A DNA stretch of 62,130 nt from Candidatus Fermentithermobacillaceae bacterium (GCA_012841375.1 DUUV01000052.1:1-62130), one strand, 5' to 3'. Positions 39,137-60,340 are shown, numbered from the stretch's first letter. Notes: generated from the sequence alone by a model not told the origin. Program-made: numbers and translations.

Positions 39137-41080
39137 TTGGAAAGACCTCTTACTCACGATGAAACGGCGTGGACAGGGCTGGTCGGCGACCGGCACGAGC
39201 TTGCCGAGAAGATAAGGGAGTGTCCTGAGTCCCCCGGGGTTTACGTGTTCCGGGGGCTCGACGGCAAGGTGCTCTACGTCGGGAAGGCCAAGAGCCTCAG
39301 AAACAGACTGAGGTCCTACTTCGCATCGAACCTCCCGCCGAAGACCGAGGCCCTCATGTCCAAAGTGGCGCGCCTGGAGACCATCATCGTAGGGTCTGAG
39401 ACCGAGGCATTGATACTCGAACTCAACCTCATAAAGAAGCACAGGCCCGAATACAATATCCGGCTCCGCGACGACAAGCATTACCCTTACATCCGGGTTG
39501 GGGTAGCCGATCAGTGGCCAAGGGTCACTCTGGTGAGGAGGCGTAGCAAGGACGGAGCCAGGTACTTTGGCCCCTTCACCAGAGCCGCTTCAGTGAGAGA
39601 GACCCTGGCTTTGCTGAGGCGCATTTTTCCTTACCGTACATGCACGGACACTACCCTTGCTCAGGCTACCCGCCCGTGTCTCGACTATCATATCCAGAGG
39701 TGTATGGGCCCCTGCACCGGCACCCTTGATGATGGCGACTATAGGGCGATGATTGACGAGGTCGTGAAGTTCCTAGAGGGCCGCCACGAAGAAGTAAAGA
39801 CCAGGCTTGAACGCCGGATGGGTAAGTATGCGGAAGATATGGAGTTTGAGAAGGCCGCAAGGGTCCGGGACCAGATCAGGGCCCTGGAAGACGTAACACG
39901 CAAGCAGCTCATAACCGTGCCCGACTGGAAAGACAGGGACCTCATCGGGCTGGCTCGTTCCGGAGACTCCGCCTTTGTTGCGCTCCTTCCCGTGAGAGAA
40001 GGGAAGCTGGTCGGAAAGGAAGGGTTCATGCTGCAGGGCGCGGCCGAGGAAGGCGATGCCCGGGTGATCGAGGCGTTCATCTCCCAGTACTATTCCTCGG
40101 CCCAGGTGTTCCCAAGCGAGATCCTTGTGCCTGTCGAGCTCTCGTCCTCCAAGGAGCTGGAGGCGTTCTTGGGTGAAGCGCGGCGCGCGTCGGGCCAGAG
40201 AGAGCGCGCCATCCGCATAAGGACCCCCAGACGGGGGAGGTTCAAGGAACTGGTCCTCATGGCCCAGGACAACGCCAGAAACATGCTTGCCGAGCAGATC
40301 CCCAAAGAGCAGCGTGAAACCGACGCCAACAACAGGGCCATGGAGGCTCTACGAGATAGCTTAGGGTTAGAGAAGCTCCCGAGACGCATCGAGGGTTACG
40401 ATATCTCCAACTTGACCGGCAAGCAAGCCGTGGCCTCAATGGTGGTCCTCACCAATGGGAGGCCGGACAAGTCTCAATATAGGAAGTTCCGGATGAAGGT
40501 TGACGGCAAGCCCAATGACTTCGCCATGATGCAGGAAGTCTTGTGGCGCCGGTTCCGGAAGGGATTGGCCGAGAGGGAAGAAGCCAGGACGTCGGGAAAG
40601 CCCGGGAAGTTTGCCGTCTTCCCCGACCTCATAGTGGTCGATGGCGGTAAAGGCCAGGTCAGCGCGGCCCAGGAAGTGCTGGATGAGCTGGGCCTCTCCA
40701 TACCGATGGCGGGCCTGGCCAAACGGAATGAGGAGGTTTTCCTTCCGGGACGGTCCGAACCGGTTGAGCTTCCCCGTGACTCGGGAGGGCTCTTTCTGGT
40801 CATGCGTTTGAGAGATGAAGCTCACAGGTTCGCGGTCTCATACCACAGGGCCTTGCGCGGAAAGAGGGCGACTCAGTCGGCGCTCTTGGAGATCCCCGGA
40901 GTCGGCCCGGTCAAGGCGCGGGAGCTGCTCAGGGTATTCGGAGACGTTGCCTCCATCCGCGACGCCACTCCGGAAGAAGTGGCACGCGTAGGGGGGATAG
41001 GTCCCGACTTGGCCGCAACGATCCTCAAGACTTTGAGGCGCGCAGGTGACACCAGACCACGTGACCCGGGTCTCCTCTGA
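39137..41080 (+). CDS. uvrC: UvrABC excinuclease subunit C
   Basis: A 647-residue UvrC, which makes both incisions in nucleotide excision repair. The N-terminal GIY-YIG domain (PESPGVYVFRGLDGKVLYVG), UVR domain (KYAEDMEFEKAARVRDQIRA), RNase H-like domain (IEGYDISNLTGKQAVASMVV; IVVDGGKGQVSAAQEVLDEL) and C-terminal helix-hairpin-helix (LLEIPGVGPVKARELLRVFG) are all present. It begins at TTG 39137. The last 56 bases overlap the convergent oppF gene, with no terminator between them. Confidence 0.97.
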   Translation: MERPLTHDETAWTGLVGDRHELAEKIRECPESPGVYVFRGLDGKVLYVGKAKSLRNRLRSYFASNLPPKTEALMSKVARLETIIVGSETEALILELNLIKKHRPEYNIRLRDDKHYPYIRVGVADQWPRVTLVRRRSKDGARYFGPFTRAASVRETLALLRRIFPYRTCTDTTLAQATRPCLDYHIQRCMGPCTGTLDDGDYRAMIDEVVKFLEGRHEEVKTRLERRMGKYAEDMEFEKAARVRDQIRALEDVTRKQLITVPDWKDRDLIGLARSGDSAFVALLPVREGKLVGKEGFMLQGAAEEGDARVIEAFISQYYSSAQVFPSEILVPVELSSSKELEAFLGEARRASGQRERAIRIRTPRRGRFKELVLMAQDNARNMLAEQIPKEQRETDANNRAMEALRDSLGLEKLPRRIEGYDISNLTGKQAVASMVVLTNGRPDKSQYRKFRMKVDGKPNDFAMMQEVLWRRFRKGLAEREEARTSGKPGKFAVFPDLIVVDGGKGQVSAAQEVLDELGLSIPMAGLAKRNEEVFLPGRSEPVELPRDSGGLFLVMRLRDEAHRFAVSYHRALRGKRATQSALLEIPGVGPVKARELLRVFGDVASIRDATPEEVARVGGIGPDLAATILKTLRRAGDTRPRDPGLL

Positions 41081-42005
41081 TCTCCACCGGCAGGGGTTCC
41101 ATCTCGGCGCAGATGTCCATTTTGTGGGCGCACCTTGTCTGAAACCTGCAGCCAGGGGGCGGGTCCACTGCCGAAGGCACCGTGCCCTGAAGCCGTATCC
41201 TGGACTCGCCGGTCGCTCCCAGGCGCGGAATGGCCGAAAGCAACGCCTGAGTGTAAGGGTGGGAAGGGTTTTCGAAGAGGCTTTCGGTCGGCGCCGTCTC
41301 GACAATCTTGCCTAGATACATGACCGCCACTCTATGGCTGGCATGGTGCACCACGGCGAGGTCGTGGGATATGAGCAGGAACGAGACACCTGTCTCCGCC
41401 TGGAGCCCCTCGAGGAGGTTCAGTATCTGGGCTTGTACGGATACGTCTAGGGCCGATACCGGTTCGTCGGCGACGATGAGGCGCGGCCGCATGGCAAGGG
41501 CTCGAGCCACCCCGATCCGCTGCCTCTGCCCGCCGCTGAACTGGCGTGGGTATTGGTCCAGGTGAAGGGGGGTGAGTCCGACCCTCTCGAGCAACTTGAC
41601 CGACTCGTCTTCCCGTTCCTCCAGCGGCACGCCCCTTTTCTCCAGAGAGACCCCGAGTATCTGACGCACCGTGTGGCGTGGATTCAGTGACGCGTAGGGG
41701 TTCTGGAATATCATCTGCCCATTAGGTTCGGTTTTCCCTTCATAGAGGACCTGACCTGCAGTCGGCGCATAGAGTCCTACGATGACTCGGCCTAGGGTGC
41801 TCTTGCCGCATCCCGACTCTCCCACGAGGCCGAGGGTCTCGCCTTCCTCGATATAAATGTCTACGCCGTCAACCGCCTTGGTTGTACGTTCCTTCTCGCC
41901 GAGAAGGCACCGGGCCAAGAATCCCGGCCTCGAGTAGAAGTAGCGCTTCAGGCCGATGGTCTTGACCAGGGGAGTCCTTTCCTTCAAGGAAGCGGCAGCC
42001 TCCAC
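41025..42005 (-). CDS. oppF: Peptide ABC transporter ATP-binding protein (OppF/DppF)
   Basis: A 326-residue ATPase of a peptide-type importer. Walker A GESGCGKSTLGRVIVGLYA, signature FSGGQRQRIGVARAL and Walker B RLIVADEPVSALDVSV are complete. The C-terminal oligopeptide domain carries a Cys set (CRFQTRCAHKMDICAEMEP, plus a Cys in the last 10 residues), similar to the four-Cys element that binds an iron-sulphur cluster in some Opp ATPases. Its GTG start directly follows the TGA of oppD. It is the last gene of the operon, and its 3' end overlaps uvrC. Confidence 0.94.
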   Translation of the reverse strand: MEAAASLKERTPLVKTIGLKRYFYSRPGFLARCLLGEKERTTKAVDGVDIYIEEGETLGLVGESGCGKSTLGRVIVGLYAPTAGQVLYEGKTEPNGQMIFQNPYASLNPRHTVRQILGVSLEKRGVPLEEREDESVKLLERVGLTPLHLDQYPRQFSGGQRQRIGVARALAMRPRLIVADEPVSALDVSVQAQILNLLEGLQAETGVSFLLISHDLAVVHHASHRVAVMYLGKIVETAPTESLFENPSHPYTQALLSAIPRLGATGESRIRLQGTVPSAVDPPPGCRFQTRCAHKMDICAEMEPLPVEIRGDPGHVVWCHLRASKS

Positions 42006-43016
42006 TCACGAACACCCCGAATCCTGGGCGGCGGCCACATCGCCGTATTCCGGCACACCGTATCTGTGGCACCTGACCATTCTGTCTCCGGCGTCCAAGA
42101 GGGACTCAAGGGTCTCCAGGCAACCGGGTACCGCCTTGTCACACCGGGGGTAGAAGGCACATCCCTCATGGTTCTCGGATAGATCGGCTACCTGTCCCCG
42201 TATGGGTGTGAGCGGAACGCCCTTCCGAAACCTAGGGATGCACCCGATGAGCCCGCGTGTGTACGGGTGGAGAGGGCGCGACAGGACATCCTTAACGCTG
42301 CCTTCCTCCACTATCTGACCGGCGTACATGACGGCGATGCGGTGGCAGAACTGAGACGCGACGGCCAGGTTGTGGGTGACGAGGACTATGGCGGTCCCTC
42401 TGTCGCGATTTATCTGCCTCAGCAAGTCAAGGATCTGGGCTTCGATAGTGACATCCAACGCGGTGGTGGGTTCATCGGCCAAGATGAGTTTGGGGCGGCA
42501 GGAGAGAGATATGGCGATCATCACCCGCTGCTGCATCCCGCCGCTCAATTGGTGTGGGTAGTACCCGAGCACCGTCTCGGGCGAAGGTATCCCGACTTCT
42601 TTGAGGAGGTCTACCAGAACACTACGGGTACTGGGCAGTCCGTGGACTCTCAAGGCTTCTTTCATCTGCGCCCCGATTTGGTGGGCGGGGTTCAGGGTGG
42701 ACATGGGGTCCTGGAACACCATGGCCACGGTGCCTCCTCGAAGCGCCTGAAGCCCTTTCCCGTTCAGCGCCAGGACATCGGTCCCGTCAACTTCTATGCT
42801 TCCGGCAACGATCTCGCCGGGAAACGGGAGGAGCCTCATCACCGATAGGAGCGTGGCGCTTTTTCCGCACCCGGATTCTCCCACCAGCCCCACGATCTCG
42901 CCTTCGCGGACCGAAAGGTCCACTCCTCTCACGGCCCGTACCGGGCCCCTGTCGGTCCGGTAACAGACTTGAAGCCCCTTTATGGAAAGGACCTCCTTAT
43001 CGCCGGGTGCTGCCAT
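42006..43016 (-). CDS. oppD: Peptide ABC transporter ATP-binding protein (OppD/DppD)
   Basis: A 336-residue ATPase, partner of OppF. Walker A GESGCGKSATLLSVMRLL, signature LSGGMQQRVMIAISLSC and Walker B KLILADEPTTALDVTI are present, followed by the oligopeptide-transporter C domain with CAFYPRCDKAVPGC and a fourth Cys near the end (MVRCHRYG). The gene lies 23 bases downstream of the permease gene, with AAAGGAGG before its ATG. Substrate class (oligopeptide, dipeptide or other) cannot be decided from the ATPase. Confidence 0.94.
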   Translation of the reverse strand: MAAPGDKEVLSIKGLQVCYRTDRGPVRAVRGVDLSVREGEIVGLVGESGCGKSATLLSVMRLLPFPGEIVAGSIEVDGTDVLALNGKGLQALRGGTVAMVFQDPMSTLNPAHQIGAQMKEALRVHGLPSTRSVLVDLLKEVGIPSPETVLGYYPHQLSGGMQQRVMIAISLSCRPKLILADEPTTALDVTIEAQILDLLRQINRDRGTAIVLVTHNLAVASQFCHRIAVMYAGQIVEEGSVKDVLSRPLHPYTRGLIGCIPRFRKGVPLTPIRGQVADLSENHEGCAFYPRCDKAVPGCLETLESLLDAGDRMVRCHRYGVPEYGDVAAAQDSGCS

Positions 43017-43039
43017 GTGGAGCGCCTCCTTTCACGTAC

Positions 43040-43951
43040 TCAGAAAGTCTGAAGGTCAGGGTCCAGGACTTCCCGCAGTCCCTCCCCGACGAGATTCACC
43101 GACAAGACAAGAGCGACCAAGATGATCCCAGGAAACGTCGACAGCCACCACGCGTTCAAGATGAAGCGGTATCCGTCTTGGATCATGGAGCCCCATGTCG
43201 GGATCCTGGGAGGGATCCCGATCCCCAGAAAACTCAAGGAGGCTTCCATGACCATCATGGTGCCCATCCGCAGGGTTCCCACCACCAATAGCGGGTTCAC
43301 GATGTTGGGGAGTATCTCAAAGCCCATTATCTCCAGGTCTGACCGCCCTAAGACTTTGGCTGCTTCCACGTATTCTTTGGTCTTTTCGGCCAAGACTCCC
43401 GCTCTGGCCAGCCTGAAAAACTCAACCCATCCCTTGAAGCAGAGAGCCCAGACTAGGTTCCAGAACCCTGGCCCCAGCATGGCCATCGCGCCTATGGCGA
43501 AGATGAGGTAGGGGAATGCCAGGAGCACCTCTGTGAGTCTGGACATGAACGTGTCGAGGGTGCCTCCATAGTAGCCTGCAAGCACGCCCAAGACTCCTCC
43601 GGTGAAAATGGAGATGGCCACCGTTATGAGGCCCACCAAGATGGAGACCCGTGCGCCGTGGAGGATGCGCGTGAGTACGTCACGGCCCAAATGATCGGCC
43701 CCCAATACGTACTCGCCGCCCGGCGGGCTGAACCTGTCGTTCAGGTTCATCTTGTCCGGCGAATAGGGGGAAATGAGCGGGGCCAGGACTGCCGCCAGCA
43801 CGATGGCGGTCACAACCACCGCGCCGGCGACTGCGGACTTGTTGCGGCCCAAGCGCTTGAGAGTCGCCCCGGCGCTCTCTGCCCACAGCCTGAGGCGCAA
43901 ACGCATCAACCTTCGCCTGACACTGGCCTGTGTGCTCTCTCCCCTTATCAA
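43040..43951 (-). CDS. oppC: Peptide ABC transporter permease (OppC/DppC)
   Basis: A 303-residue permease with six transmembrane segments; the first lies at about 38-60 (SAVAGAVVVTAIVLAAVLAP). The EAA loop reads VEAAKVLGRSDLEIMGFEIL (about residues 188-207). N-terminal DPPC-type sequences such as SPPGGEYVLGADHLGRDVLT identify the C subunit. The annotated TTG at 43951 has only a weak RBS; an in-frame ATG at 43906 is possible. Partner of the OppB permease just upstream. Confidence 0.92.
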   Translation of the reverse strand: MIRGESTQASVRRRLMRLRLRLWAESAGATLKRLGRNKSAVAGAVVVTAIVLAAVLAPLISPYSPDKMNLNDRFSPPGGEYVLGADHLGRDVLTRILHGARVSILVGLITVAISIFTGGVLGVLAGYYGGTLDTFMSRLTEVLLAFPYLIFAIGAMAMLGPGFWNLVWALCFKGWVEFFRLARAGVLAEKTKEYVEAAKVLGRSDLEIMGFEILPNIVNPLLVVGTLRMGTMMVMEASLSFLGIGIPPRIPTWGSMIQDGYRFILNAWWLSTFPGIILVALVLSVNLVGEGLREVLDPDLQTF

Positions 43952-43955
43952 GTCC

Positions 43956-44978
43956 TTACACCTTCTCTCCGACTACGAGTTTTGGGTTAAGCCATGTGTA
44001 GAGGATGTCGGCGATGAGGTTCACCGTCACAAACGTGAGTCCGTATACCATGACCGCCCCTTGTACAAGCGAGTAGTCGCGACTGAAGATGCCGTCCACC
44101 ACCAGCCGTCCCATACCCGGCCATCCAAATATGGTTTCAACCACCATGTTCCCGCCCAAGAGGCCGCCAATCTCCAGGCCCGTCACCGTTACCGCAGGTA
44201 TGAGGGCGTTTCTGAAAGCGTGCTTGATGATGACCGCCCATTCGGCGACGCCCTTGGCTCTGGCGTAGGTCACGTAGTCTTTTCTGAGGGTCTCGAGCAT
44301 GGATGAGCGGATTATCCTCGTGATCACAGCCGCGGGCGCCGCGCCCAGGGCTATGGAGGGCAACACCAGGTGCCTGAGGGAGTCCTTGAGCGCAGGCAGG
44401 TTGCCTGTAAGGATCGAATCCAAGACGTAGAAACCGGTGACATGAGACGGGACCAACCCGTATGTCGCCCTTCCCGATGTCGGAAGCCACTTGAGGTGCA
44501 CCGAAAAGATCAGGATTAGGACTATGCCGAGCCAGAAAGCCGGCATGGATATCCCCAGAAATGAACATGCCATGCTGGAGCGGTCGATGAGCGACTTATG
44601 CTTCACGGCCGTGATGATACCGAGTGGCACGGCCACCGCGAGCGCTATCAGGATGGCCGCCAGGGCCAGCTCGACGGTAGCCGGAAGGGCCTCGAGGAGG
44701 AGCTTGCCTACGTTGGACGACCGGGATATGGAGTAGCCAAGGTCCCCCTTAAGGACCCGCATGAGATAAGAGGCGAGTTGCACGTGGAGTGGATCATCCA
44801 GATTGAACTGGGATCTTAGCGCGTCTATTTCCTCCTGGGTGACGTTTGAGGCTTCCCCCAACATGATGTCTACGGGGTCTCCGGGTAGGAGCCTCATGAA
44901 GAGAAAGACGACTATGCACACTCCCAGCATGATGGGCAGCGCGGCCAGCGCTCTCTCCAGGATCTTCACTCCACGCAC
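43956..44978 (-). CDS. oppB: Peptide ABC transporter permease (OppB/DppB)
   Basis: A 340-residue permease with about six transmembrane segments. Diagnostic are FLFMRLLPGDPVDIMLGE near the N terminus, LLEALPATVELALAAILIAL, and the EAA loop YVTYARAKGVAEWAVIIKHA followed by FRNALIPAVTVTGLEIGGLL. GTG 44978 follows AAGGAGG. It comes directly after the binding-protein gene (21-base gap) in the same operon. Confidence 0.94.
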   Translation of the reverse strand: MRGVKILERALAALPIMLGVCIVVFLFMRLLPGDPVDIMLGEASNVTQEEIDALRSQFNLDDPLHVQLASYLMRVLKGDLGYSISRSSNVGKLLLEALPATVELALAAILIALAVAVPLGIITAVKHKSLIDRSSMACSFLGISMPAFWLGIVLILIFSVHLKWLPTSGRATYGLVPSHVTGFYVLDSILTGNLPALKDSLRHLVLPSIALGAAPAAVITRIIRSSMLETLRKDYVTYARAKGVAEWAVIIKHAFRNALIPAVTVTGLEIGGLLGGNMVVETIFGWPGMGRLVVDGIFSRDYSLVQGAVMVYGLTFVTVNLIADILYTWLNPKLVVGEKV

Positions 44979-44999
44979 GTCACACTCGCCTCCTTAGGT

Positions 45000-46595
45000 C
45001 TACTCGGTAGGAAGTGAAACGTTGAAGCCGGCCTCTCTCAGAAGCTCAACCGCTTTGGCCGGATCGTACTCGTATGGCTTTAGGTCATGGTTGTACCCAA
45101 AGCCGCTCGGTATGAACGCCGTCGACAGTCTGGTGGCCTTGCCTCCGTAAATGGTGGCTATAATGGTATCCCAGTCGATGGCATGGTTCAGTGCCTGCCG
45201 GACCTTGACGTCATCGAATGGGGGCTTGGTTAGGCAGAACTCTATGCCGTACGTCCTGGTACCTGGGACCGATTCAACTTTTGCGTTGGGATCGCCCGAC
45301 AATGAATCGGCCATGTCGGGTGGGAGCTTGTCGGCTATGTGGATCTCGCCGGCCTTCAAGGCGGCAACTCTGGTCGCCGGGTCGGGCATCATGCGGAATA
45401 CCACCGTGTCGATGCGGGCAGGCCCTACGGGCGGGAGGTCCGGCGCCCCACCGTAATAATCTTCAAATCGCGTGAGGACGACCTGGTCATCCAGACGACC
45501 CTCCTTGAACATGAAGGGGCCCGCGCCGACCGGCTTCTCGGCGAACCCGGCATCTCCCACCTCAGTCACATAGTCCTTGGGCACAATCTGGAAGTGACAC
45601 AGGGCCTGAGGGAAGACAGGGAACGGGTTCTCAAGAGTGAAGGTGACCGTGTAGTCGTCGTTCTTGACCACCGAAGCCAGCGGGCCCAAGAGTCCCAGCC
45701 TCGGAGAGGTCTGGCCTCCAATGCCGTTCTCTTGGAGGATTCTCTCGAAGGTGAACACAACGTCGTCGGCGTCCAGCGCCTCTCCGTTGTGGAACTTGAT
45801 CCCCTCTCTTATCTTGAACACATATGTAGTCGGGTCGGGTGTTTCCCACGACTCGGCTATCTCGGGGATTACTTCGCCATCCCAAGTCCGCGTGACAAGG
45901 GCGTCAAAAACGTTCCTTATCACGGTCTCAGTATCGCGGTCGCGGTAGTTGCCCGGATCCATGGTAACGATCTTGTCGATGCCCAGGCCGATCTTAATCG
46001 TACCCGTTCCCTCCACGGTGACGTCGTGCAGGTTGATACGGGAGTCCATGGATACGCGCCAACCTCCCACTTTGGTCGAGGCCGCGGCGGTCTCCTCAAG
46101 GCAGTACCCGAAAACCCAAGGGCAATCTTTGTAGATGATGTCCTGCACCTCAAAGTACAAGGCCTTTCGTGTCTCGTCATCGGTGGCCGAAGTGGCTTGG
46201 CTCAAGAGGTCGTCCACTTCCGGGTTTGAATAAAACGAGTAGTTACCCCGCTCGCCTGTGGCCAGTTTTGGTATGGCCAAGTCAAATGGGTCGAAGTAGG
46301 AGCTGCCCCAGTCGGTCATGTAGAGCTGGCGGTTGCCCTCCATGAATTCGGCCTTCATGGCGCTCCATTCCCAAGTCCGGGCTTCTGCCTGTATACCGAT
46401 GTTTCTGAGCTGGGAAGCGACAGCTTCGGCTTCGTCTTTCCGGTTGGCCTCGCAGTCAATGACGATCGAGAGGGTTTCTCCGGTGACTGCCGGCTCCTTC
46501 GGGGCGCAACCGGAGACCCCGACAAAGAGGGCCAGGGCCAAAATAGCGACCGGGACGAGGACAACCGACCTCTGCAGGTTCCTCATGTGAGTCAT
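45000..46595 (-). CDS. Peptide-binding lipoprotein (SBP_bac_5), apparently circularly permuted
   Basis: A 531-residue extracellular binding protein for the oppBCDF system. It has a lipoprotein signal (lipobox VSGC, Cys30). The two halves of the family fold are in swapped order. Residues about 41-195 (LSIVIDCEANRKDEAEAVAS, ARTWEWSAMKAEFMEGNRQL, YKDCPWVFGYCLEETAAAST) look like the normal C-terminal part. Residues about 197-531 look like the normal N-terminal and middle part (IVTMDPGNYRD, ESWETPDPTTYVFKIREGIK, KPVGAGPFMFKEGRLDD) and end at YDPAKAVELLREAGFNVSLP, the place where ordinary family members continue with the segment found here at 41-195. The frame is intact with a strong GGGGAGG site, so this is a permuted gene rather than a fragment. 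Confidence 0.85.
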   Translation of the reverse strand: MTHMRNLQRSVVLVPVAILALALFVGVSGCAPKEPAVTGETLSIVIDCEANRKDEAEAVASQLRNIGIQAEARTWEWSAMKAEFMEGNRQLYMTDWGSSYFDPFDLAIPKLATGERGNYSFYSNPEVDDLLSQATSATDDETRKALYFEVQDIIYKDCPWVFGYCLEETAAASTKVGGWRVSMDSRINLHDVTVEGTGTIKIGLGIDKIVTMDPGNYRDRDTETVIRNVFDALVTRTWDGEVIPEIAESWETPDPTTYVFKIREGIKFHNGEALDADDVVFTFERILQENGIGGQTSPRLGLLGPLASVVKNDDYTVTFTLENPFPVFPQALCHFQIVPKDYVTEVGDAGFAEKPVGAGPFMFKEGRLDDQVVLTRFEDYYGGAPDLPPVGPARIDTVVFRMMPDPATRVAALKAGEIHIADKLPPDMADSLSGDPNAKVESVPGTRTYGIEFCLTKPPFDDVKVRQALNHAIDWDTIIATIYGGKATRLSTAFIPSGFGYNHDLKPYEYDPAKAVELLREAGFNVSLPTE

Positions 46596-46779: not shown

Positions 46780-46935
46780 GCACTGCAAGTGTCCCCCATC
46801 GACGCTTACGAGGTTAGCTGACGGGCGCGGGCCGATGAAGTAGCCCTACCGTTTCGGGATTAGCCCCTGATGCCTTTGGGTCCCCCGCTCTCCCATAGGG
46901 AGATTCAGCGCAAAACGGAAGTTTGTGTTCACCGG
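46780..46935 (-). ncRNA. ydaO-type c-di-AMP riboswitch upstream of the peptide transporter
   Basis: Read on the minus strand, the element opens with CGCTGAATC (46902-46910), continues with GCGGGGGACCCA and GGGGCTAATCCC, then GGGCTAC, and ends with the hallmark block CCGTCAGCTAACCTCGTAAG (within 46801-46824), all characteristic of the ydaO/yuaA family that binds c-di-AMP. Outer limits are approximate. The binding-protein ATG is about 200 bases downstream. I see several hairpins but no T-run between, so the switching mechanism is not evident. The c-di-AMP synthase gene cdaA is 9 kb away in this window. Confidence 0.88.
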
Positions 46936-49330: not shown

Positions 49331-50185
49331 TTAGGCGGGGGACTCCGGTTCCCCGCCTGACTGTTTACGCAAGCCTTCCGCTATCTGGGCGATCCTCCTG
49401 AACCGGTGGTTCACGGCCGACTTGGATGCCGCCGGGACCAAGAGCTGTCCCAGTTCCTCCATAGTAAGGTCGGGGTTTTCCAGCCGCAACCGGGCGAGCT
49501 CCTTTAAGGCGGCGGGTAAGTGAGAGAGGCCGAGCTCTTCATCTATCGTCCGAATATCCCGGAGCTGTTTGATCGATGCTTCTACCGCCCTGGAGACATT
49601 GGCTCTGTCCATGTTGACGACTCTCAGGACCGAGCTCTTGAGAGACTTCCGGGCCCTTATGTCCTCGTAGTCCATGACGGCCTGGAAAGCCCCGGTCATC
49701 CGCAGAAACTCGGCGATCTCATCTGCGTCCTTGAGGTAGGCCACATGTGAGGAACGACGCCGGACGAGCCCGCTCTTCAGTCCCTCCTTGCCGAGCAGCG
49801 AGCTCACCAACAACCCATCTTTGGACGTGGGGAGAGCTATCTCGAGGTGGTGGTTCCGCACGGGCGAAGATATCGACCCGCGGGCCAGGAAAGCCCCTCG
49901 CAGGAATGCCCGCCTGCAAGACGAGTTCGATGACAGGACACTTGAGGGTGCCGGCGGCAGAGACTCGGGAGCTTCACGGGCTCCCCATTGCTTCATGAGA
50001 TATATGCGACGCCGCATAAGGAACGGCTCGACCGGGACTCCCTCGCCGTGCTTCAAATCTTTGGGGCGTTTCAGGTACCTCCGTAGGGCGAGTATCTCCC
50101 AATAGGCCTCTCTGCGATCCCTCGTTTTTACCCTCGCCAGCTCCTCTTTGACGGCGCGTGAAAAGGTGCCCTTTCTGTCCCTCAA
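49331..50185 (-). CDS. whiA: Sporulation/division regulator WhiA
   Basis: A 284-residue WhiA (DUF199) protein: a LAGLIDADG-like N-terminal domain (about 85-180, CRRAFLRGAFLARGSISSPV) and a C-terminal helix-turn-helix (about 215-275, DLTMEELGQLLVPAASKSAVNHRFRR in two parts). It is a DNA-binding regulator of cell division and, in Streptomyces, sporulation. It overlaps yvcK by 4 bases. The rapZ-yvcK-whiA order is conserved in Bacillus. Confidence 0.95.
   Translation of the reverse strand: MRDRKGTFSRAVKEELARVKTRDRREAYWEILALRRYLKRPKDLKHGEGVPVEPFLMRRRIYLMKQWGAREAPESLPPAPSSVLSSNSSCRRAFLRGAFLARGSISSPVRNHHLEIALPTSKDGLLVSSLLGKEGLKSGLVRRRSSHVAYLKDADEIAEFLRMTGAFQAVMDYEDIRARKSLKSSVLRVVNMDRANVSRAVEASIKQLRDIRTIDEELGLSHLPAALKELARLRLENPDLTMEELGQLLVPAASKSAVNHRFRRIAQIAEGLRKQSGGEPESPA
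49333..49358 (+). terminator. Possible terminator shared by convergent operons
   Basis: AGGCGGGG (49333-49340) and CCCCGCCT (49351-49358) form an 8-base GC-rich stem with a 10-base loop, and GACTGTTT follows on the plus strand. It lies over the 3' end of whiA, so it could stop both operons. The T-run is poor. Confidence 0.45.
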
Positions 50186-51177
50186 GTCCCTGACGCTACC
50201 TTCCTTCCCCGCAACGTGGAAGCTCCTTTGTCTGAAACAAATCCGATTATGGACCTGGCCAGTTTTGACGAGTCGTGTCTGGCCAGATCGCCCTTGGACA
50301 GGTAGTCCCCCGGTACGACCGAGTATCCCCTCTCAATCAAAGCGGCCCGGTCAAGTCGAACCTGGTACCGCCCCTCTCCGGCGTATTTGGCGGCCGTCTC
50401 CGCCGGGGCCTCGGCGATATTGGCCAATACCGATGTGACCAGGCGGCCGGCATGCTTCTCGATGGCGAGGACGTGATCGGCCACTGAGTAGCCGTCCGTC
50501 TCACCCGGTTGGGTCATGATGTTGCACACGTATATTTTCCTGGCCTTCGAAGTCGCTATGGCTTCCCTGATTCCTGGGACCAACAGGTTGGGGATGACCG
50601 ATGTGTACAGACTGCCCGGGCCTATGACGATCCCGTCCGCTCTCCTGATCGCGCTCACGGCGTCATCCAGCGCAGGCGGTTCGGGAGGGCACAGGCTGAG
50701 CCTCACGATGCGTTTCCTGACCTGAGGGATCGCGTATTCCCCCAAGACCACCGAACCGTCGTCCATCACGGCGCGCAAGGTGACGTCGCTCAAGGTCGCA
50801 GGGACCACTCTACCTCTTACCGCGAGGATTCTGGACATGGTTCTGACCGCCAACTGGAAGTCGCCGGTCATCTCGGTCATGGCGGCGAGAAACAGATTCC
50901 CGAAGTTGTGTCCCGCAAGGGTCCCCCGGGTAAATCTGTGGTTGAATAGGTTGGCCATGTCGGGCTCCGCTTCAGCCAAAGCCAGGAGGCAGTTCCGGAT
51001 ATCTCCCGGAGGGAGCATCCCCATGTCTTTCCTGAGCTTGCCCGAGCTTCCGCCGTCGTCGGCGACCGTGACTATGGCCGTCAGGTCGCATTCCAGCGAC
51101 TTGAAGCCTCTCAACACACTGGCGAGACCAGTACCCCCGCCTACGGCCACTATCTTAAGTTTCTGCAGGTGGCTCAA
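50182..51177 (-). CDS. glmR: YvcK/GlmR UDP-sugar-binding regulator
   Basis: A 331-residue protein of the YvcK/CofD-like family. The N-terminal VGGGTGLASVLRGFKSLECD glycine-rich loop and TVADDGGSSGKLRKDMGMLP are diagnostic, with HNFGNLFLAAMTEMTGDF and GPGSLYTSVIPNLLVPGIRE further on. In Bacillus it binds UDP-GlcNAc and stimulates GlmS, linking carbon status to wall synthesis. GlmS is present 9 kb away here. It starts at TTG 51177, overlapping the end of rapZ. Confidence 0.94.
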   Translation of the reverse strand: MSHLQKLKIVAVGGGTGLASVLRGFKSLECDLTAIVTVADDGGSSGKLRKDMGMLPPGDIRNCLLALAEAEPDMANLFNHRFTRGTLAGHNFGNLFLAAMTEMTGDFQLAVRTMSRILAVRGRVVPATLSDVTLRAVMDDGSVVLGEYAIPQVRKRIVRLSLCPPEPPALDDAVSAIRRADGIVIGPGSLYTSVIPNLLVPGIREAIATSKARKIYVCNIMTQPGETDGYSVADHVLAIEKHAGRLVTSVLANIAEAPAETAAKYAGEGRYQVRLDRAALIERGYSVVPGDYLSKGDLARHDSSKLARSIIGFVSDKGASTLRGRKVASGT

Positions 51178-52088
51178 TGACCAGGACCTCCAGATTCTCC
51201 CCGCTCGATATCCCTATGCTCGACTACTACAGTATGTTCGTTGGCTTCCAGGTGGGCGCGGAGAGCTTCTCCTATCGTGACTGACCGGTGCCTTCCTCCT
51301 GTACAGCCTATGGCGATGGTGAGGTGAGACTTTCCTTCGTCAACGTAATTCGGCAGGAGGAAGTCGACAAACTTGGTGAGCCGGTTGAAGAAGCCTTTGG
51401 CCAAGGTGGGTTTGAGCACGTAACGACTTACCTTGGTGTCCAGTCCGGTGAGGGGCCTGAGTTCGGCGACGTAGTGGGGGTTGGGAAGGAACCTCACGTC
51501 AAAAACGAGATCGGCGTCAAGCGGGAGGCCGTACTTGAACCCGAACGTGACTATCGTTATCAGCAATTTCTGCAACTTGACCGTCTTCGAGAAGACCTCG
51601 ATCAACTGCTTTCTGAGGTCAGATGTGCTCAGGTTGGACGTGTCGATGATGAGAGTCGCCTTGGACCTGATATCGGAGAGCATGTCACGCTCGTCCCGTA
51701 TGCCCTCCAGGGTGCTTCCTTGCGGAGAGAGCGGGTGACGCCTGCGGGTTTCCTTGTACCGCCTCACCAAAACATCGTTGTCGGCCTCGAGGAACAAGAT
51801 GGCCGGTTTCACTCCGTCAAGGCTCAGAGTTTCCAGAGCGCCCGAGAGGTCTTCGAAAAACTCCCGGCCTCGAACGTCCACACCCATGGCAATCTTGGAT
51901 ATGGGCTCTTCCAGCTGCTTGCACAGCTGCATGAAGGTCGGGATCAGGGCCGGAGGAAGGTTGTCGACGCAATAGTAACCCAAGTCCTCCAGAGTCCTAA
52001 GGGCTTGAGACTTGCCCGCGCCGGAGAGTCCGGTTATGAGTACCAGGTTGGCGTTGAAACCTTCGATAGGTTCGCTGATATCGGACAC
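51174..52088 (-). CDS. rapZ: RNase adapter/nucleotide-binding protein RapZ
   Basis: A 304-residue RapZ (YvcJ) with N-terminal P-loop (LITGLSGAGKSQALRTLEDL) and a C-terminal domain (about 160-300) including IAIGCTGGRHRSVTIGEAL. In enteric bacteria RapZ senses glucosamine-6-phosphate and controls glmS mRNA decay; the Bacillus homologue is a GTPase. It starts at GTG 52088, with AGAGGTGGGAGA upstream, and overlaps yvcK. Confidence 0.95.
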   Translation of the reverse strand: MSDISEPIEGFNANLVLITGLSGAGKSQALRTLEDLGYYCVDNLPPALIPTFMQLCKQLEEPISKIAMGVDVRGREFFEDLSGALETLSLDGVKPAILFLEADNDVLVRRYKETRRRHPLSPQGSTLEGIRDERDMLSDIRSKATLIIDTSNLSTSDLRKQLIEVFSKTVKLQKLLITIVTFGFKYGLPLDADLVFDVRFLPNPHYVAELRPLTGLDTKVSRYVLKPTLAKGFFNRLTKFVDFLLPNYVDEGKSHLTIAIGCTGGRHRSVTIGEALRAHLEANEHTVVVEHRDIERGESGGPGH

Positions 52089-52118
52089 TCTCCCACCTCT
52101 CTTTGCGGGCCGGCCCGG

Positions 52119-52931
52119 TTATTCTCCGGCGGGTACCCCCAAATCGGCCCACAGACGCGCTTGGCGGGACGGCTTCACCAGAAAATCAAGATTGGCGCCT
52201 TCCTGCCACGCCTTGTACATGCTTTCCCCCTGCCTGAGCCCTATCTCCGGGTAGTCTCTGGGCTTCACCAGCCGGGGCTTCGGGTGTTCTCCGTAGCTGT
52301 CGTTGGGCATGAATATGCTCTGGTCTTTGTATTCAACGTCGTAGAAGGCCAACCCTTTACGCAGTTTAATGGGGTCGTACACCGATTGGAAGTCCCTGGC
52401 GATCCAGTTGGCCAAGACCAGAGGTACTTGGCCGGGGTTCACCGTTACGTGACCGTAGAAAGGTGGTATTAATAGGATGTCGCCTTCGGCGAAGTCCGCA
52501 ACGACGAAATCGTCAACTTGCCCGCTGACCTCGCCTCCCCGCTGCATAAGGAAGTGGGCCTTGCCGTAGAGGATCTGGTAGACCTCGGGATAAGTCCAAG
52601 GGTGCCCCGGGGCTTTAGGATGGTAGTGACCAAGGGTTTTCACGTACTCCGCCCCTATCTTGCCCGGGTAGATGACCGTAATGTCGTACCTGAGGCCTGC
52701 GTCCTCCATCGCCCGCCGGTCGCTCTGGAGGCCTGTGCCGCGATACATGTGATAAAGCGGGTCAGGCCCGGGCTCGCCGGGGTACAACAGCACCTCTCTG
52801 AGGTCCTCCAAGCGCCTCACCGACGGCTCGGGGGCCACTACTCCTTCTCCGAAGGTCAAGCGTCCGTCTTCCCCCATTGATACTAGAAAGCCGGCCAAAC
52901 GGGACAAAGATACATTGACAAGGTCTGCCAT
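52119..52931 (-). CDS. Cupin-type glucose-6-phosphate isomerase
   Basis: A 270-residue cupin-fold phosphoglucose isomerase (cPGI), the metal-dependent enzyme better known from Archaea, interconverting glucose- and fructose-6-phosphate. Metal-site motifs are TLGHYHPKAPGHPWTYPEVY (His, His, Glu) and FYGHVTVNPG (His). ATG 52931 has AAGAAGGG upstream; GTG 52940 is also in frame. It lies between a COG1751 gene and rapZ with gaps of about 30 bases and may be the source of fructose-6-phosphate for GlmS. Confidence 0.9.
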   Translation of the reverse strand: MADLVNVSLSRLAGFLVSMGEDGRLTFGEGVVAPEPSVRRLEDLREVLLYPGEPGPDPLYHMYRGTGLQSDRRAMEDAGLRYDITVIYPGKIGAEYVKTLGHYHPKAPGHPWTYPEVYQILYGKAHFLMQRGGEVSGQVDDFVVADFAEGDILLIPPFYGHVTVNPGQVPLVLANWIARDFQSVYDPIKLRKGLAFYDVEYKDQSIFMPNDSYGEHPKPRLVKPRDYPEIGLRQGESMYKAWQEGANLDFLVKPSRQARLWADLGVPAGE

Positions 52932-52966
52932 TGGCGTCACCCTTCTTTCCAGTGCTTGACGGTAAC

Positions 52967-53524
52967 CTATGCTCTAGTGTTCCGCGGTTTGCAGATGATC
53001 TCCAAGACCTGCGTTTCAAAGAACGTCTTGGCGTGAGACGGTACGAGCATCACAGCGCTATCCGCGCCGGCGCCCGAGCCGCCGACCGAGATCACAGGCT
53101 CGCCGTAAGGGATAAGTCCGGCATCCAAAGCCATCACCGCGATTTCCAGGGCGACTTTTATCCCCTGGGAGAACATCCGCAGAGTATCCGCGATTATCCC
53201 GCCGGGGTACAGGCCGCCTTGTTTCTGGGTGATGGCCCTCTCGACATTTGCGAAGAGGTGGGTTGTAGTCAGGACCTGAACTCCGGCCTCCTTGAGCTCC
53301 CTGCGGGTCTCAGGTCCCATTTCGTCCAGTCCGGGTCCTCTAAACCCGATGTGGTGGGTGACGCAGACCACGTTGACGTCCTTGCCTACAAAGTGCCTTG
53401 CGGTGAAACCCGTATTAGACGCGACTACAATGTGTTTGATGCCTGCCTCTTTGGCTCGCGCCAGCGCCAGCCTGACGGTTTCCTCGGTATTGGCTTTTCC
53501 CCTGGAGGCGAAATAAGTGGTCAT
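52967..53524 (-). CDS. COG1751 protein (pyruvate-kinase alpha/beta-domain fold)
   Basis: A 185-residue protein matching COG1751, which shares the alpha/beta fold of the pyruvate kinase C-terminal domain. It shows ANTEETVRLALARAKEAGIK, HIVVASNTGFTARHF, VVCVTHHIGFRGPG and VISVGGSGAGADSAVMLVPS. There is no catalytic pyruvate kinase part. The function is unknown; the fold suggests binding of a phosphorylated sugar. Its ATG overlaps the stop of the HTH-TPR regulator (ATGA), so the two genes are translated together. Confidence 0.8.
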   Translation of the reverse strand: MTTYFASRGKANTEETVRLALARAKEAGIKHIVVASNTGFTARHFVGKDVNVVCVTHHIGFRGPGLDEMGPETRRELKEAGVQVLTTTHLFANVERAITQKQGGLYPGGIIADTLRMFSQGIKVALEIAVMALDAGLIPYGEPVISVGGSGAGADSAVMLVPSHAKTFFETQVLEIICKPRNTRA

Positions 53525-55458
53525 TCGCTCTCATCTCCTCTCGGTGGTTTTGATTGCGATGGGCTCAGGAGAGAGCATTCTCTGTGGAGCTCCCGTATGT
53601 CCCAGCGTCCTTTCTCGTATATCTGAAACGCCCGTTTTTCCATGAGGCGTTCCTCCTGGCTGTTGCCCATTTCCCTGAATACCTGAGACAGCCAGAGCGC
53701 AGCGCACGCCAGGTCTCGCTGGGCTCCTTCTCTCTGGAAGCAATCCACTGCCTGCCTTCCCAATTCTGCGGCCTGAGGGAATCTGCCCGCCCTCCTGTGT
53801 ATGCAGCCTCTTATGAGCCATATCCATCCTCTCTCACGGTTGGCGTGCTCGTCGATGTGAGGCATGGCTTCATCAATAAGTCGCTGAGACTCCTCGGGAT
53901 TGCCTTCGCGTAGCGAGACCCTGGCCAGTTCGACAAGGCCGTAGGCCCACTTTAGGTGAAGCCCTATCGACTTGTTCAGTTCCAGGGCTTTCATGAGGTG
54001 ATTACGGGCTTCTGCCATGTCGTCCATCCTATACATGATCATCCCCAGGTTATGCCAGGCCGTCGCCATTTCTTCGGGCTCCAGTTCCTCGCCTTTCTCA
54101 AGGCAGGAGAGGAAGTATTGACGGGCACTCTTCCAGTTGCGCCTCTCAAACTCGATGACGCCCATGAGAAGAGCCTGGTGTGAAAGGACACGGTCTACCT
54201 CGGGCGAGCTGCGACTCACCGCCCAACGCTTTGCCTCTTCCAGTGCGTTTTCGGCCTCTCCCGACTTACCTCGCTTAAGGTTGATGGCGGCCAGGTTGAT
54301 TAGAAGGGGCCCGTACAACTTCGAGTCCTCCGACGAAATCTGGAGGCCCTTCTTGTACCAGGCGGCAGCTGCTTCCAGGTCATGGGCGGCGAATAGGGCG
54401 CCGATCTGGTTGCATACATTCTCGTGCTGTTTCACAAGGCCGGCAGACTCGAGGGTGGAGGATGCGCTGCCTGCAAGTTCGCTTGCTGCCTGGAAGTTGT
54501 CTCCCAACGCCGCACAGCGTGCGGCCTCCAAGAGACAGCGACCTTTATCGTAGGGCCGGTCAAGGATTCCGTGGATGACGGCTGCCCTATACCACGAATT
54601 TGCCGCTTCTTCAAACAGATCCCTCAGGCGGAAATCCATTGCGGCTTTCTCGAGAAAGACGACCGCTTCTTTGTCCAGCATGGCCTTCATCAAGGTTTCG
54701 GCCAGGTTCCTGAAGAAGAAAGGATCATCGTCCGGGTAAAGCTGCATTGCCTGCGCCAGGCCACGGTGGATCTCCCGCATCTTCTGCTGGCTGAAGAGGG
54801 ACGAGACCGGAACATAGGGGTAGGACACCCTGAATCTGGTGCATCCTACGTCCTCGAGGATAGACAGGATCCCCTTATCTCGTAGACTCCTCGTGATCCT
54901 TGTGAAGTCATCGCTGTCCAGGTCGGCTATGGCCTTTACCCATTCGGATTTAGCGTCGTTGCCCGCTGTGGAGATGAGAGCCAGGAGACGGATTTCCTCT
55001 TCTGAGAGGTCCATAGCATCGAACACTCTGTCCGATTCATCTCTGGCTAGCTCCTCCAGAAGCTCAGACAAGAAGTACTTCACACTCTGCGCGTCCCTAT
55101 CACTCAGAGTGCCGAGGACCACGTAAAACGCTTTTCTCTTATGGCGCAGATTTGACTTCGTAAGGAATACTTCAACAAGGTCTTTCAGTTCATGCCTAAG
55201 TGCATCGGTGAGAACCAGAGGTTGCTCATCGTAACTGCTGACAGGTTGATTTTCAGAGTAGAGGAGAGACATGGGGACGTTCAATACGGAAGCTATCCTG
55301 TCTTTGTACTCGTCGTTAAGGTTCTTGCGAGTGCCGTTCAAGACAAGAGAGAGGTAGGACTCAGAGAGACCGATCCTGGCCGCAAGGTCCTTGATGCGGA
55401 TGTTCCTCTGAGCCAGAAGCCGTTTCACGTTGTTGGCAAAGGTCTCGATTGAAGCCAT
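53521..55458 (-). CDS. Large XRE-type HTH regulator with TPR repeats
   Basis: A 645-residue regulator. Residues about 5-65 are an XRE/Cro helix-turn-helix (IRIKDLAARIGLSESYLSLV). Residues about 150-215 resemble a winged helix as found in STAND proteins (LSEEEIRLLALISTAGNDA; LRDKGILSILEDVG), but no NTPase motif is present. About 230-640 is a series of TPR-like helical pairs (ATAWHNLGMIMYRMDDMAEA, then RNHLMKALELNKS). HTH-TPR proteins of the RRNPP group sense secreted peptides; those are usually near 300 residues, so this one is atypical. A secreted repeat-peptide gene lies 93 bases upstream on the same strand. Its exact ligand is unknown. Confidence 0.85.
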   Translation of the reverse strand: MASIETFANNVKRLLAQRNIRIKDLAARIGLSESYLSLVLNGTRKNLNDEYKDRIASVLNVPMSLLYSENQPVSSYDEQPLVLTDALRHELKDLVEVFLTKSNLRHKRKAFYVVLGTLSDRDAQSVKYFLSELLEELARDESDRVFDAMDLSEEEIRLLALISTAGNDAKSEWVKAIADLDSDDFTRITRSLRDKGILSILEDVGCTRFRVSYPYVPVSSLFSQQKMREIHRGLAQAMQLYPDDDPFFFRNLAETLMKAMLDKEAVVFLEKAAMDFRLRDLFEEAANSWYRAAVIHGILDRPYDKGRCLLEAARCAALGDNFQAASELAGSASSTLESAGLVKQHENVCNQIGALFAAHDLEAAAAWYKKGLQISSEDSKLYGPLLINLAAINLKRGKSGEAENALEEAKRWAVSRSSPEVDRVLSHQALLMGVIEFERRNWKSARQYFLSCLEKGEELEPEEMATAWHNLGMIMYRMDDMAEARNHLMKALELNKSIGLHLKWAYGLVELARVSLREGNPEESQRLIDEAMPHIDEHANRERGWIWLIRGCIHRRAGRFPQAAELGRQAVDCFQREGAQRDLACAALWLSQVFREMGNSQEERLMEKRAFQIYEKGRWDIRELHRECSLLSPSQSKPPRGDESE

Positions 55459-55551
55459 GCTTGTCTCCCACTAGAAGGCAAAAAGATACCGGGATTGAGG
55501 GATTCCCGGTTCCTACATCTGGGATTATTCTACCAGCTTAGGCCGCTCCAG

Positions 55552-55860
55552 TCACCCTGTGATGCTGTTCTGATCAGGTGGCTCCAAGGGTGGTACGATT
55601 GGTGGCGGGTATAGCGGGCCACCGGCCACGACGATGATGCTGTTCTGATCGGGTGGCTCCAAGGGTGGTACGATCGGTGGAGGGTATAGCGGGCCGCCGG
55701 CTACGATGCTGTTCTGATCGGGTGGCTCCAGGGGCGGTACGATTGGTGGCGGGTATAGTGGGCCACCGGCGACGGCGGGTTCAGGTGTGAACGCGCCCAA
55801 GGCAGAGCCCACGCCGAACAGGCAGGCGACAACAAGGAGAAGGGCCAAGGTTTTCCTCAT
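55552..55860 (-). CDS. Secreted proline-rich triple-repeat peptide
   Basis: A 102-residue precursor with a strong signal peptide (residues about 1-23, RKTLALLLVVACLFGVGSAL) and then three nearly identical repeats of 23 residues whose core is GGPLYPPPIVPPLEPPDQNS, with a two-residue insert before the third repeat and a final TG. AAGGAGGTG stands 6 bases before ATG 55860. The residues before the repeats are EPAVA. Repeats separated by similar linkers are the form of a prepropeptide that releases several copies of one peptide; it could also be a small proline-rich wall protein. Cognate regulator follows. I do not recognise a family. Confidence 0.75.
   Translation of the reverse strand: MRKTLALLLVVACLFGVGSALGAFTPEPAVAGGPLYPPPIVPPLEPPDQNSIVAGGPLYPPPIVPPLEPPDQNSIIVVAGGPLYPPPIVPPLEPPDQNSITG
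55562..55774 (-). repeat. Three 69-base tandem repeats in the peptide gene
   Basis: Units 55562-55630, 55637-55705 and 55706-55774 are each 69 bases; the first two are separated by 6 bases (ACGATG on the plus strand). Differences are few and mostly silent (for example CCA/CCG, GGG/GGC), indicating selection on the encoded peptide sequence or recent duplication. Confidence 0.9.
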
Positions 55861-55932
55861 CTTGTACACCTCCTTGATATTCTGTGAGAACAGTCCGCTG
55901 GCCCAACGTTTTCTAGTCTCCGGGCGAGGCTC

Positions 55933-55967
55933 AAAAAAAGGGAGGCAGCAAACCCTGGCTGCCCCGT
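55933..55967 (-). terminator. Intrinsic terminator-like hairpin in the repeat-peptide leader
   Basis: On the minus strand GGCAGC and GCTGCC form a stem with an 8-base loop (CAGGGTTT), followed by TCCC and a run of seven T. It is about 70 bases before the ATG of the repeat-peptide gene. No minus-strand gene lies upstream (cdaA is divergent), so it may attenuate the leader of the peptide gene. Confidence 0.6.
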
Positions 55968-56238
55968 AAGGTGGATACCGGCTGAGCACTCGCGCGTTGT
56001 TGGGCATCCGGCAGATTCTATGAGCATTAGGTTGATTCCTGTGGCAGAAGGCGGGTTCGATGGCAGGTGTTGCCAAACGGTAACCTGGCATTAGCTCGCA
56101 GAAAGCCAAACTGAGCCTTGGAGACCTTATGTCAACTAGAGTTTGCTGAGAGGTAATCTGAAAGGGTAGTTTTCAATAACGCCACTAGATAGGGAGCGTG
56201 AAATATTCCACCAGTTAAAGTCGACTTCCAGCGTTTTC

Positions 56239-59772: not shown

Positions 59773-60340
59773 GTGTACGAGAACAAGCAAGGTGTAGCAG
59801 GGTTGTCGAAGCGTATCGGGCAGCGTGAGGTTTCGCGCGGCGAGGGTTTGAGAGTTTAGAAGGAAAGGACACGTCACAGAACGCCATTGGTCTTGCAGGA
59901 AAGGTAGTTTGGTCGGCGGCAGGTTTCTTAATGTAGTAAAGCGCCTGGACTTCCGGATGCTTCAGGTGGGTCTGAAAGAGAGCGCGTTGGCACTCAGGGT
60001 TCCGGAAGTTGACGAGGATAGGGGTATTCGAAAGATTCGGCGGGTTCCCTACGGTTGGCCACGACCGATAGAGGTCTCTCAAAACCTCCGGGTGACCGGA
60101 GAACAATAGAGGCCGGGTGGTTGCCGCGACGTCTGTGCCGTATCGTTCCACTCTCGAGACCGTGATCCGCACCTTGAGCTTCTGTTTCCACGCTGGAGCT
60201 TCACGTCATGGGTTCACGTTCGAGCTTTGCGTTTGAGCCTCACGTCAGTGCATCGCTCCCGACGACGAGACCTCCGGATGCACCGGGTGTGGCGCCAATT
60301 TTATCCGGAGGGACAATATGGGCCAGAGGAGGATACGACA
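59773..60340 (+). other. Long glmM-glmS intergenic region containing the glmS leader
   Basis: No gene is seen. The first 165 bases before the ribozyme show no convincing promoter; the pair TTGGTC/TGTAGT just before 59940 is poor. The ribozyme occupies about 59938-60115, and about 225 bases then precede glmS without recognised structure. The glmS translation site GAGGAGG is at 60326-60332. Confidence 0.6.
59938..60115 (+). ncRNA. glmS: glmS ribozyme (glucosamine-6-phosphate-activated, self-cleaving)
   Basis: The conserved core is present: the cleavage site A59940/G59941 before GCGCCTGGACTTCCGG, the pairing CCGGAAGTTGACGAGGATAG, GGGGTATTCGAA followed by TTCGGCGGG and CCCTACGG, and the closing CTCCGGGTGACCGGAGAACA. 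The class uses glucosamine-6-phosphate as cofactor and exposes a 5'-OH end that leads to mRNA decay. The 3' limit is approximate. Confidence 0.93.

Follow-up and report, generated by a model that had tools for sequence, protein, structure and literature searches.

A secreted proline-rich repeat precursor and a large HTH/winged-helix/TPR regulator form a probable peptide-signalling pair in Candidatus Fermentithermobacillaceae

Organization of the locus

Candidatus Fermentithermobacillaceae are mostly spore-forming bacteria known almost solely from metagenomes. The window, a stretch of 62,130 nt from one member of this family, carries two neighbouring genes encoding a short repeat precursor and a large regulator, together with several putative control elements (Table 1). 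A preliminary description had proposed that the precursor comprises 102 residues and bears a signal peptide, and reading of the open reading frame agrees with this: its N-terminus (MRKTLALLLVVACLFGVGSALG) consists of an MRKT... n-region followed by a long hydrophobic stretch, the signal peptide being called by eye and with a crude hydropathy rule. The precursor has no family match in Pfam or NCBIfam and is single-copy in its own genome (2.37 Mb, 157 contigs). The near-identical 23-residue repeats initially described were found to be three copies of GGPLYPPPIVPPLEPPDQNSI, each with the same 21 residues and set 23 and 25 residues apart; the number of copies thus stands, and the stated length was nearly exact. 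As the same 21 residues occur three times even though their codons differ, the repeat is not due to chance. The gap of 93 nt between the precursor and the regulator on one strand was confirmed.

Table 1. Features of the locus and of the rest of the window
Feature	Position	Strand	Basis or remark
Regulator gene, 645 aa	53521-55458	minus	HTH/winged-helix/TPR; Pfam, AlphaFold2 and structure alignment
Precursor gene, 102 aa	55552-55860	minus	signal-peptide-like N-terminus and three identical proline-rich repeats
Repeat 1, GGPLYPPPIVPPLEPPDQNSI	55705-55767	minus	protein and codon comparison
Repeat 2	55636-55698	minus	protein identical to repeat 1; 6 synonymous differences from repeat 1
Repeat 3	55561-55623	minus	protein identical; 4 synonymous differences from repeat 1, 4 from repeat 2
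Sigma-H-type promoter AGGAATC-N-ATAGAAT	56015-56040	minus	pattern AGGAWWW-N11/12-RNNGAAT
17-nt leader motif CTCAGCCGGYATCCACC	55970-55986	minus	preceded by the near-palindrome GAGTRCTC
Intrinsic-terminator hairpin and T-run	55932-55965	minus	between leader motif and precursor start
Sigma-A-like promoter match GTGACT-17-TAGAAT	55527-55555	minus	weak consensus match, 9/12
Hairpin ACCGGGA..TCCCGGT and T-run	55480-55510	minus	between precursor and regulator; read from sequence
Peptide-family ABC importer operon	41025-46595		c-di-AMP riboswitch upstream
OppA/DppA-type binding protein	45000-46595	minus	circular permutant
c-di-AMP (ydaO) riboswitch	46788-46920	minus	just 5' of the peptide-transporter operon
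Diadenylate cyclase gene cdaA	56361-57176	plus	divergent from the repeat precursor
glmS ribozyme aptamer	59929-60124	plus	94.5 bits; downstream of a glmM-like gene

The regulator gene overlaps by 4 nt a PK_C-domain gene, at the head of a co-directional run (49331-53524, minus strand) with a GPI-family gene. This run also holds genes which, named by eye, we take to be rapZ-, yvcK- and whiA-like. Given the overlap and the shared direction, transcription of the regulator could feed into that operon.

Architecture of the regulator

The AlphaFold2 model of the regulator, built on an alignment with 11 orthologs, has a mean pLDDT of 86 and comprises an HTH domain (residues 4-66), three helices (86-141), a winged helix (145-211) and TPR-like helix pairs (224-629), the latter forming a predicted superhelix of about 10 pairs; the superhelix at the C-terminus of RRNPPA receptors has 5-9 TPR repeats. 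HTH_3 (E 2.4e-07) and TPR families were found with Pfam, and no NTPase domain was present among the best 25 Pfam matches, in agreement with the proposal of a 645-residue XRE-HTH/winged-helix/TPR protein devoid of an NTPase. RNPP-type models were likewise absent from these 25 matches. The AimR model reached 14.3 bits on the regulator, against a cut-off of 70, and none of the Rap, Rgg, PlcR, NprR and PrgX models exceeded its own cut-off. Since no known receptor model scores above its cut-off, we have chosen not to file the pair as a member of RRNPPA by descent.

With regard to structure, VIA-align matched regulator residues 339-626 to NprR-NprX (4gpk; Z 21.4, rmsd 3.3 over 278 residues), 286 residues to a phage Rap (8rsu; Z 19.6, rmsd 3.6), and the regulator to several further Rap structures, some of them pheromone-bound, with Z of 17-20. 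As the TPRs of LGN (Z 25.4) and O-GlcNAc transferase (Z 23.3) also score high, with a larger rmsd, the TPR similarity does not single out RRNPP proteins. A comparison with a viral fold library returned generic TPR proteins only. The modelled fold allows an RRNPP-like peptide site without proving one. The complex of one repeat with the TPR domain, suggested earlier as a check, was approached by modelling precursor and regulator as one fused chain, with the stops between them read as glycine; all repeats had a pLDDT below 50 and no docking was predicted, a negative but weak result.

Between genera of the family, the HTH domain is 68-72% identical and the TPR regions 32-47%. A conserved HTH with a divergent TPR region is what one would predict for a regulator whose ligand diverges and whose DNA target stays the same. 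No match to the regulator was found in phages and plasmids, and there is therefore no sign of a mobile system.

Occurrence in related genomes

The search with the precursor in 61 relatives returned strong homologues in three genomes of the same genus (g1), and the search with the regulator returned full-length orthologs, 36-76% identical, in ten other genomes. Further precursors were found by reading the DNA upstream of each regulator ortholog. In total, the precursor and its leader motif occur in 10 of the 61 relatives, all of them Candidatus Fermentithermobacillaceae, in three genera; a DNA-pattern search of a genome collection also gave records from metagenome assemblies of this family only. 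The co-occurrence that had been put forward as a check was observed: an orthologous regulator lies directly downstream of the precursor in 9 of these 10 genomes, and the precursor lies directly upstream in all nine family genomes with an intact regulator ortholog. In the tenth (G013), the contig end falls inside the repeat array, and this would account for the lack of a regulator. These counts are not independent, as the genomes are few and related. Both genes are absent from four family genomes (G005, G008 and G010 of g3, and G007 of g5).

At least three gene neighbourhoods, unrelated to one another, contain the pair. Among the groups compared, the flanking genes are cdaA and the PK_C-domain gene in g1, others in g2, what we take, by eye, to be a Sir2-like gene in g4, and, beside the f2 regulator, a radical-SAM cluster. 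The conserved unit is the pair, not the surrounding genes. The intergenic distance varies among genomes (93, 111, 165 and 231 nt). The precursor homologues of the nine other genomes have 1-4 repeats, namely 2, 2 and 4 in other g1 species, 2 in g2 (G004) and 1-3 in g4, with a single copy in G006; two are truncated by contig ends. The match at a contig end in G011, initially weak, is real: one contig stops and another starts within the repeats, which marks a break in the assembly. Weak matches outside the family (E 0.006-0.9) look like low complexity.

The regulator ortholog group is restricted to this order among 154 genomes of the class, with two more genomes matching N-terminally only. For paralogous HTH-TPR proteins of the same genomes (L035, L041-L045, L050), no convincing signal-peptide ORF was found upstream; the pairing is therefore specific to this ortholog group. 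The two f2 genomes, G014 and G015, have a regulator of 35-36% identity, with neither the leader motif nor a clear repeat precursor upstream of it. The only upstream candidate there, about 70-330 nt before the regulator start (L030, L031), is an ORF with a signal peptide and a ribosome site. The two assemblies disagree on its frame at a poly-C tract, which has 9 C in G015 and 7 in G014; this could reflect phase variation, sequencing error or chance; a third frame would give GPQMPPKPPIGG, which resembles the family core. Divergent from the f2 regulator, a locus of G015 (L084, 11713-14733) contains a small Cys-rich ORF with the C-terminal end CGSGCGDGCGRGCGLECYN, one for a radical SAM protein and one resembling an ABC transporter, and is possibly a ranthipeptide-like RiPP cluster.

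Selection on the repeat copies

For each repeat, the 11-residue core was taken from its GP anchor, and adjacent copies within one precursor were compared. The comparison covers about 136 synonymous and 293 non-synonymous sites. It gave about 56 synonymous differences (pS 0.41) and not one amino-acid difference, the single printed non-synonymous step being an artefact of averaging two-step codon paths. The chance of this pattern is about 1e-28 if changes follow site number alone, codon bias and the choice of the core being ignored in this figure. Some of the spacers between repeats differ in sequence and length. The codon comparison shows, at the sequence level, that purifying selection acts on every repeat copy; as the copies are invariant in protein and synonymous changes are many, each copy is a functional unit. 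This is what one would expect if a precursor gave off its peptide several times. Between genera the core changes: it is GP[LAV]YPPPI[VI]PP in g1, GPGIPIPIPPG in g2 and GP[VQ]LPxPLPPV in g4.

Promoter, leader and terminators

In the aligned upstream regions of 10 genomes, the AGGA of the sigma-H-type promoter is invariant and the GAAT is kept in 9 of 10, some g1 sequences deviating at the W positions. The pattern AGGAWWW/RNNGAAT agrees, spacing included, with the Bacillus subtilis consensus, and the precursor promoter is called at the level of this consensus only. Three matches to the pattern were observed in the window against 0.75 expected, and SigH exceeded its curated cut-off in all 17 genomes searched.

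The leader motif CTCAGCCGGYATCCACC occurs a single time in every one of the 10 precursor genomes and is missing from the 51 others; an overlapping 15-mer, with one mismatch allowed, gave one extra site only. The leader had no match in Rfam at a permissive E-value and is therefore not one of the riboswitch families in that database. A leader peptide was considered and rejected: all codon positions of the motif are conserved and a shared start is absent, which makes conservation as DNA or RNA more likely. The terminator hairpin that follows is kept in 10 of 10 genomes, and its stem sequence changes between genera. Altogether, the leader is a candidate operator or attenuator, or an RNA element, for the precursor gene.

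The hairpin between the two genes is conserved in four genomes of the same genus, with a similar one in G004, and is likely the terminator of the precursor transcript; the sigma-A-like match may serve the regulator. A read-through fusion across the 93-nt gap, which is in frame in four genomes, was also considered. Each genome has several stops there, and G006 and G011 do not keep the frame; thus no precursor-regulator fusion protein is made.

Possible link to sporulation, and peptide import

The g3 genomes, all without the system, are small and have Spo0A and SigH; no sigma-F-like match above the level of the housekeeping factor was found in them, which makes a loss of sporulation in g3 probable. 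All family genomes that carry the system also carry a sigma-F-like gene, and G007 has sigma-F and lacks the system. As the counts are small and phylogenetically dependent, the link to sporulation is a hint only.

The preliminary description had also pointed to an Opp-type importer. A peptide-family importer is indeed encoded in the window, but its distribution does not follow the gene pair: for its binding protein, no match exceeded the cut-off in the pair-bearing genomes G006 and G009, and G007, which lacks the pair, encodes it. The operon is hence not a dedicated partner, and it is plausible that some oligopeptide permease imports the peptide. The binding protein has a permuted order, its residues 56-190 aligning with residues 379-516 of PDB 5u4o (C-terminal lobe) and its residues 223-525 with 69-360; this order is found full-length in at least five other genomes, with 68-86% identity.

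Interpretation

We consider that the two genes probably encode a peptide signal and its receptor, working like an RRNPP system. This reading had been proposed from the window alone, and the genomic comparison now supports it through the co-occurrence of the genes, the selection on each copy, the sigma-H-type promoter and the similarity of the TPR region to NprR and Rap. Sigma-H would drive the precursor gene in late growth, and the leader with its terminator may set the amount of transcript that passes through. The signal peptide would export the precursor, from which extracellular proteases would cut several copies of one short proline-rich peptide, its core being GPxxPxP[IL]xPP. A general oligopeptide permease would return this peptide to the cell, where it would bind the TPR superhelix of the neighbouring regulator and alter DNA binding by the HTH domain, probably first at its own locus. 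The output may be tied to sporulation entry.

A different explanation, which we regard as unlikely, would make the repeat protein a proline-rich surface protein, either secreted or anchored by lipid and perhaps belonging to the envelope or the forming spore; the regulator would then do no more than control its gene, on another cue. Proline-rich tandem repeats are frequent in surface proteins; four g1 precursors contain VVAC, VLAC or LVAC as a possible lipobox, and the sigma-H-type promoter and the sigma-F correlation would suit a spore-related product. Nevertheless, a wall anchor is not evident and the lipobox is not kept in g2 or g4. The number of copies ranges from 1 to 4, and the single copy of G006 implies that array length is immaterial. 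Identical copies between spacers of which some vary are better explained by a peptide that is cut out.

It is more improbable still that the precursor yields a multi-copy antimicrobial or cannibalism-type proline-rich peptide whose production the regulator senses or controls. The insect apidaecins are proline-rich antimicrobials made from multi-copy precursors, and the proline-rich core and stationary-phase-type promoter found here would also fit. However, proline-rich antimicrobials are cationic, whereas here the cores mostly carry no charge and, in G000 and g4, the longer repeats are acidic (EPPDQ, VEDDPP); moreover, no conserved immunity or export gene lies beside the pair, whose neighbours change. 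Finally, cis-regulation, in which translating the proline runs, with ribosome stalling and EF-P dependence, would affect the downstream regulator and the peptide itself would have no function outside, is hardly credible, for although PPP occurs in the g1 cores and a terminator-like hairpin separates the genes, the cores of G004, G009, G012 and G013 have no PPP, stalling needs neither a signal peptide nor several identical copies, and the intergenic distance is variable.

Comparison with known systems

If the pair is read as signal and receptor, one of its closest likenesses is to NprR-NprX of the Bacillus cereus group, in which an HTH is followed by helices and then by TPRs and a secreted propeptide is encoded adjacently. 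In contrast to NprR, the regulator has 645 residues and includes a winged helix, and its TPR part is longer by about 100 residues on the N-terminal side; compared with NprR-NprX, the precursor has a conserved leader and terminator before it and a proline-rich repeat of about 21 residues. The order of the genes differs from that of Rap-Phr: phr is usually downstream of rap, whereas here the precursor is upstream of the regulator. Rap lacks an HTH and targets response regulators, and Phr peptides have 5-6 residues and are not proline-rich. The likeness to Rap-Phr (phi3T, phi105, PhrI1) lies in a Sec-type propeptide with identical copies and an adjoining TPR receptor (PMC11343458, PMC4147580).

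Several copies per precursor are not new, as multiple pheromone copies per propeptide are already known in Rap, NprR, PlcR and AimR systems (PMC9765709, PMC5199041). Some nprX genes encode duplicated peptides (PMC5199041, PMC9765709), a multi-copy propeptide has been printed for B. anthracis PhrI1 (PMC4147580), and tandem-pheromone propeptides have been the subject of experiments in two phage Rap systems (PMC11343458). Most phr genes have a sigma-H promoter (PMC4689505, PMC4147580), and the nprX promoter is under SigH and SigE (PMC4147580). In anaerobic spore-forming Firmicutes, the Qsr/QssR systems of solventogenic Clostridium comprise an RRNPP regulator and an adjacent propeptide (PMC7206700). 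Set side by side by description, those systems and the present one share a regulator with an adjacent propeptide. Large TPR regulators of the AfsR/NsdA type similarly combine a DNA-binding region and TPRs in one chain; the TPR part of the regulator gave weak HMM matches to them, far under the cut-offs (NsdA, 40 against 75 bits). AfsR carries an NTPase, and we know of no peptide partner for regulators of this type. The Qsr/QssR receptors are not known to have a winged-helix insert.

The validated RRNPP systems in the benchmark of PMC10075063 have receptors of 285-473 aa and propeptides of 21-50 aa, which is a detection range and not a definition. The defaults of RRNPP_detector are 250-500 aa and 10-100 aa (PMC10075063), and the present pair would be missed because 645 aa and 102 aa exceed these limits. 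What is new here is the lineage, the size of the receptor and its winged helix, the proline-rich signal and the conserved leader. A tentative extension, to which we give a modest chance, is that the pair represents an independently evolved pheromone class, with a proline-rich signal of at least 11 residues, probably of polyproline-II type, a giant HTH/winged-helix/TPR receptor, and a dose set by the sigma-H promoter together with an attenuator responsive to the receptor or to another signal.

If the reading as a peptide signal and its receptor is true, RRNPP-like signalling reaches a Firmicutes lineage known almost solely from metagenomes and far from the cases in Bacillales, Lactobacillales and Clostridium, and comparable large-receptor systems may go undetected elsewhere owing to the detector limits of 500 and 100 aa. 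The leader motif and its terminator would offer a testable control point of pheromone production outside the textbook RRNPP picture, and the arrays, whose copies agree in protein but not in codons, would constitute a clean natural experiment on the residues of the signal.
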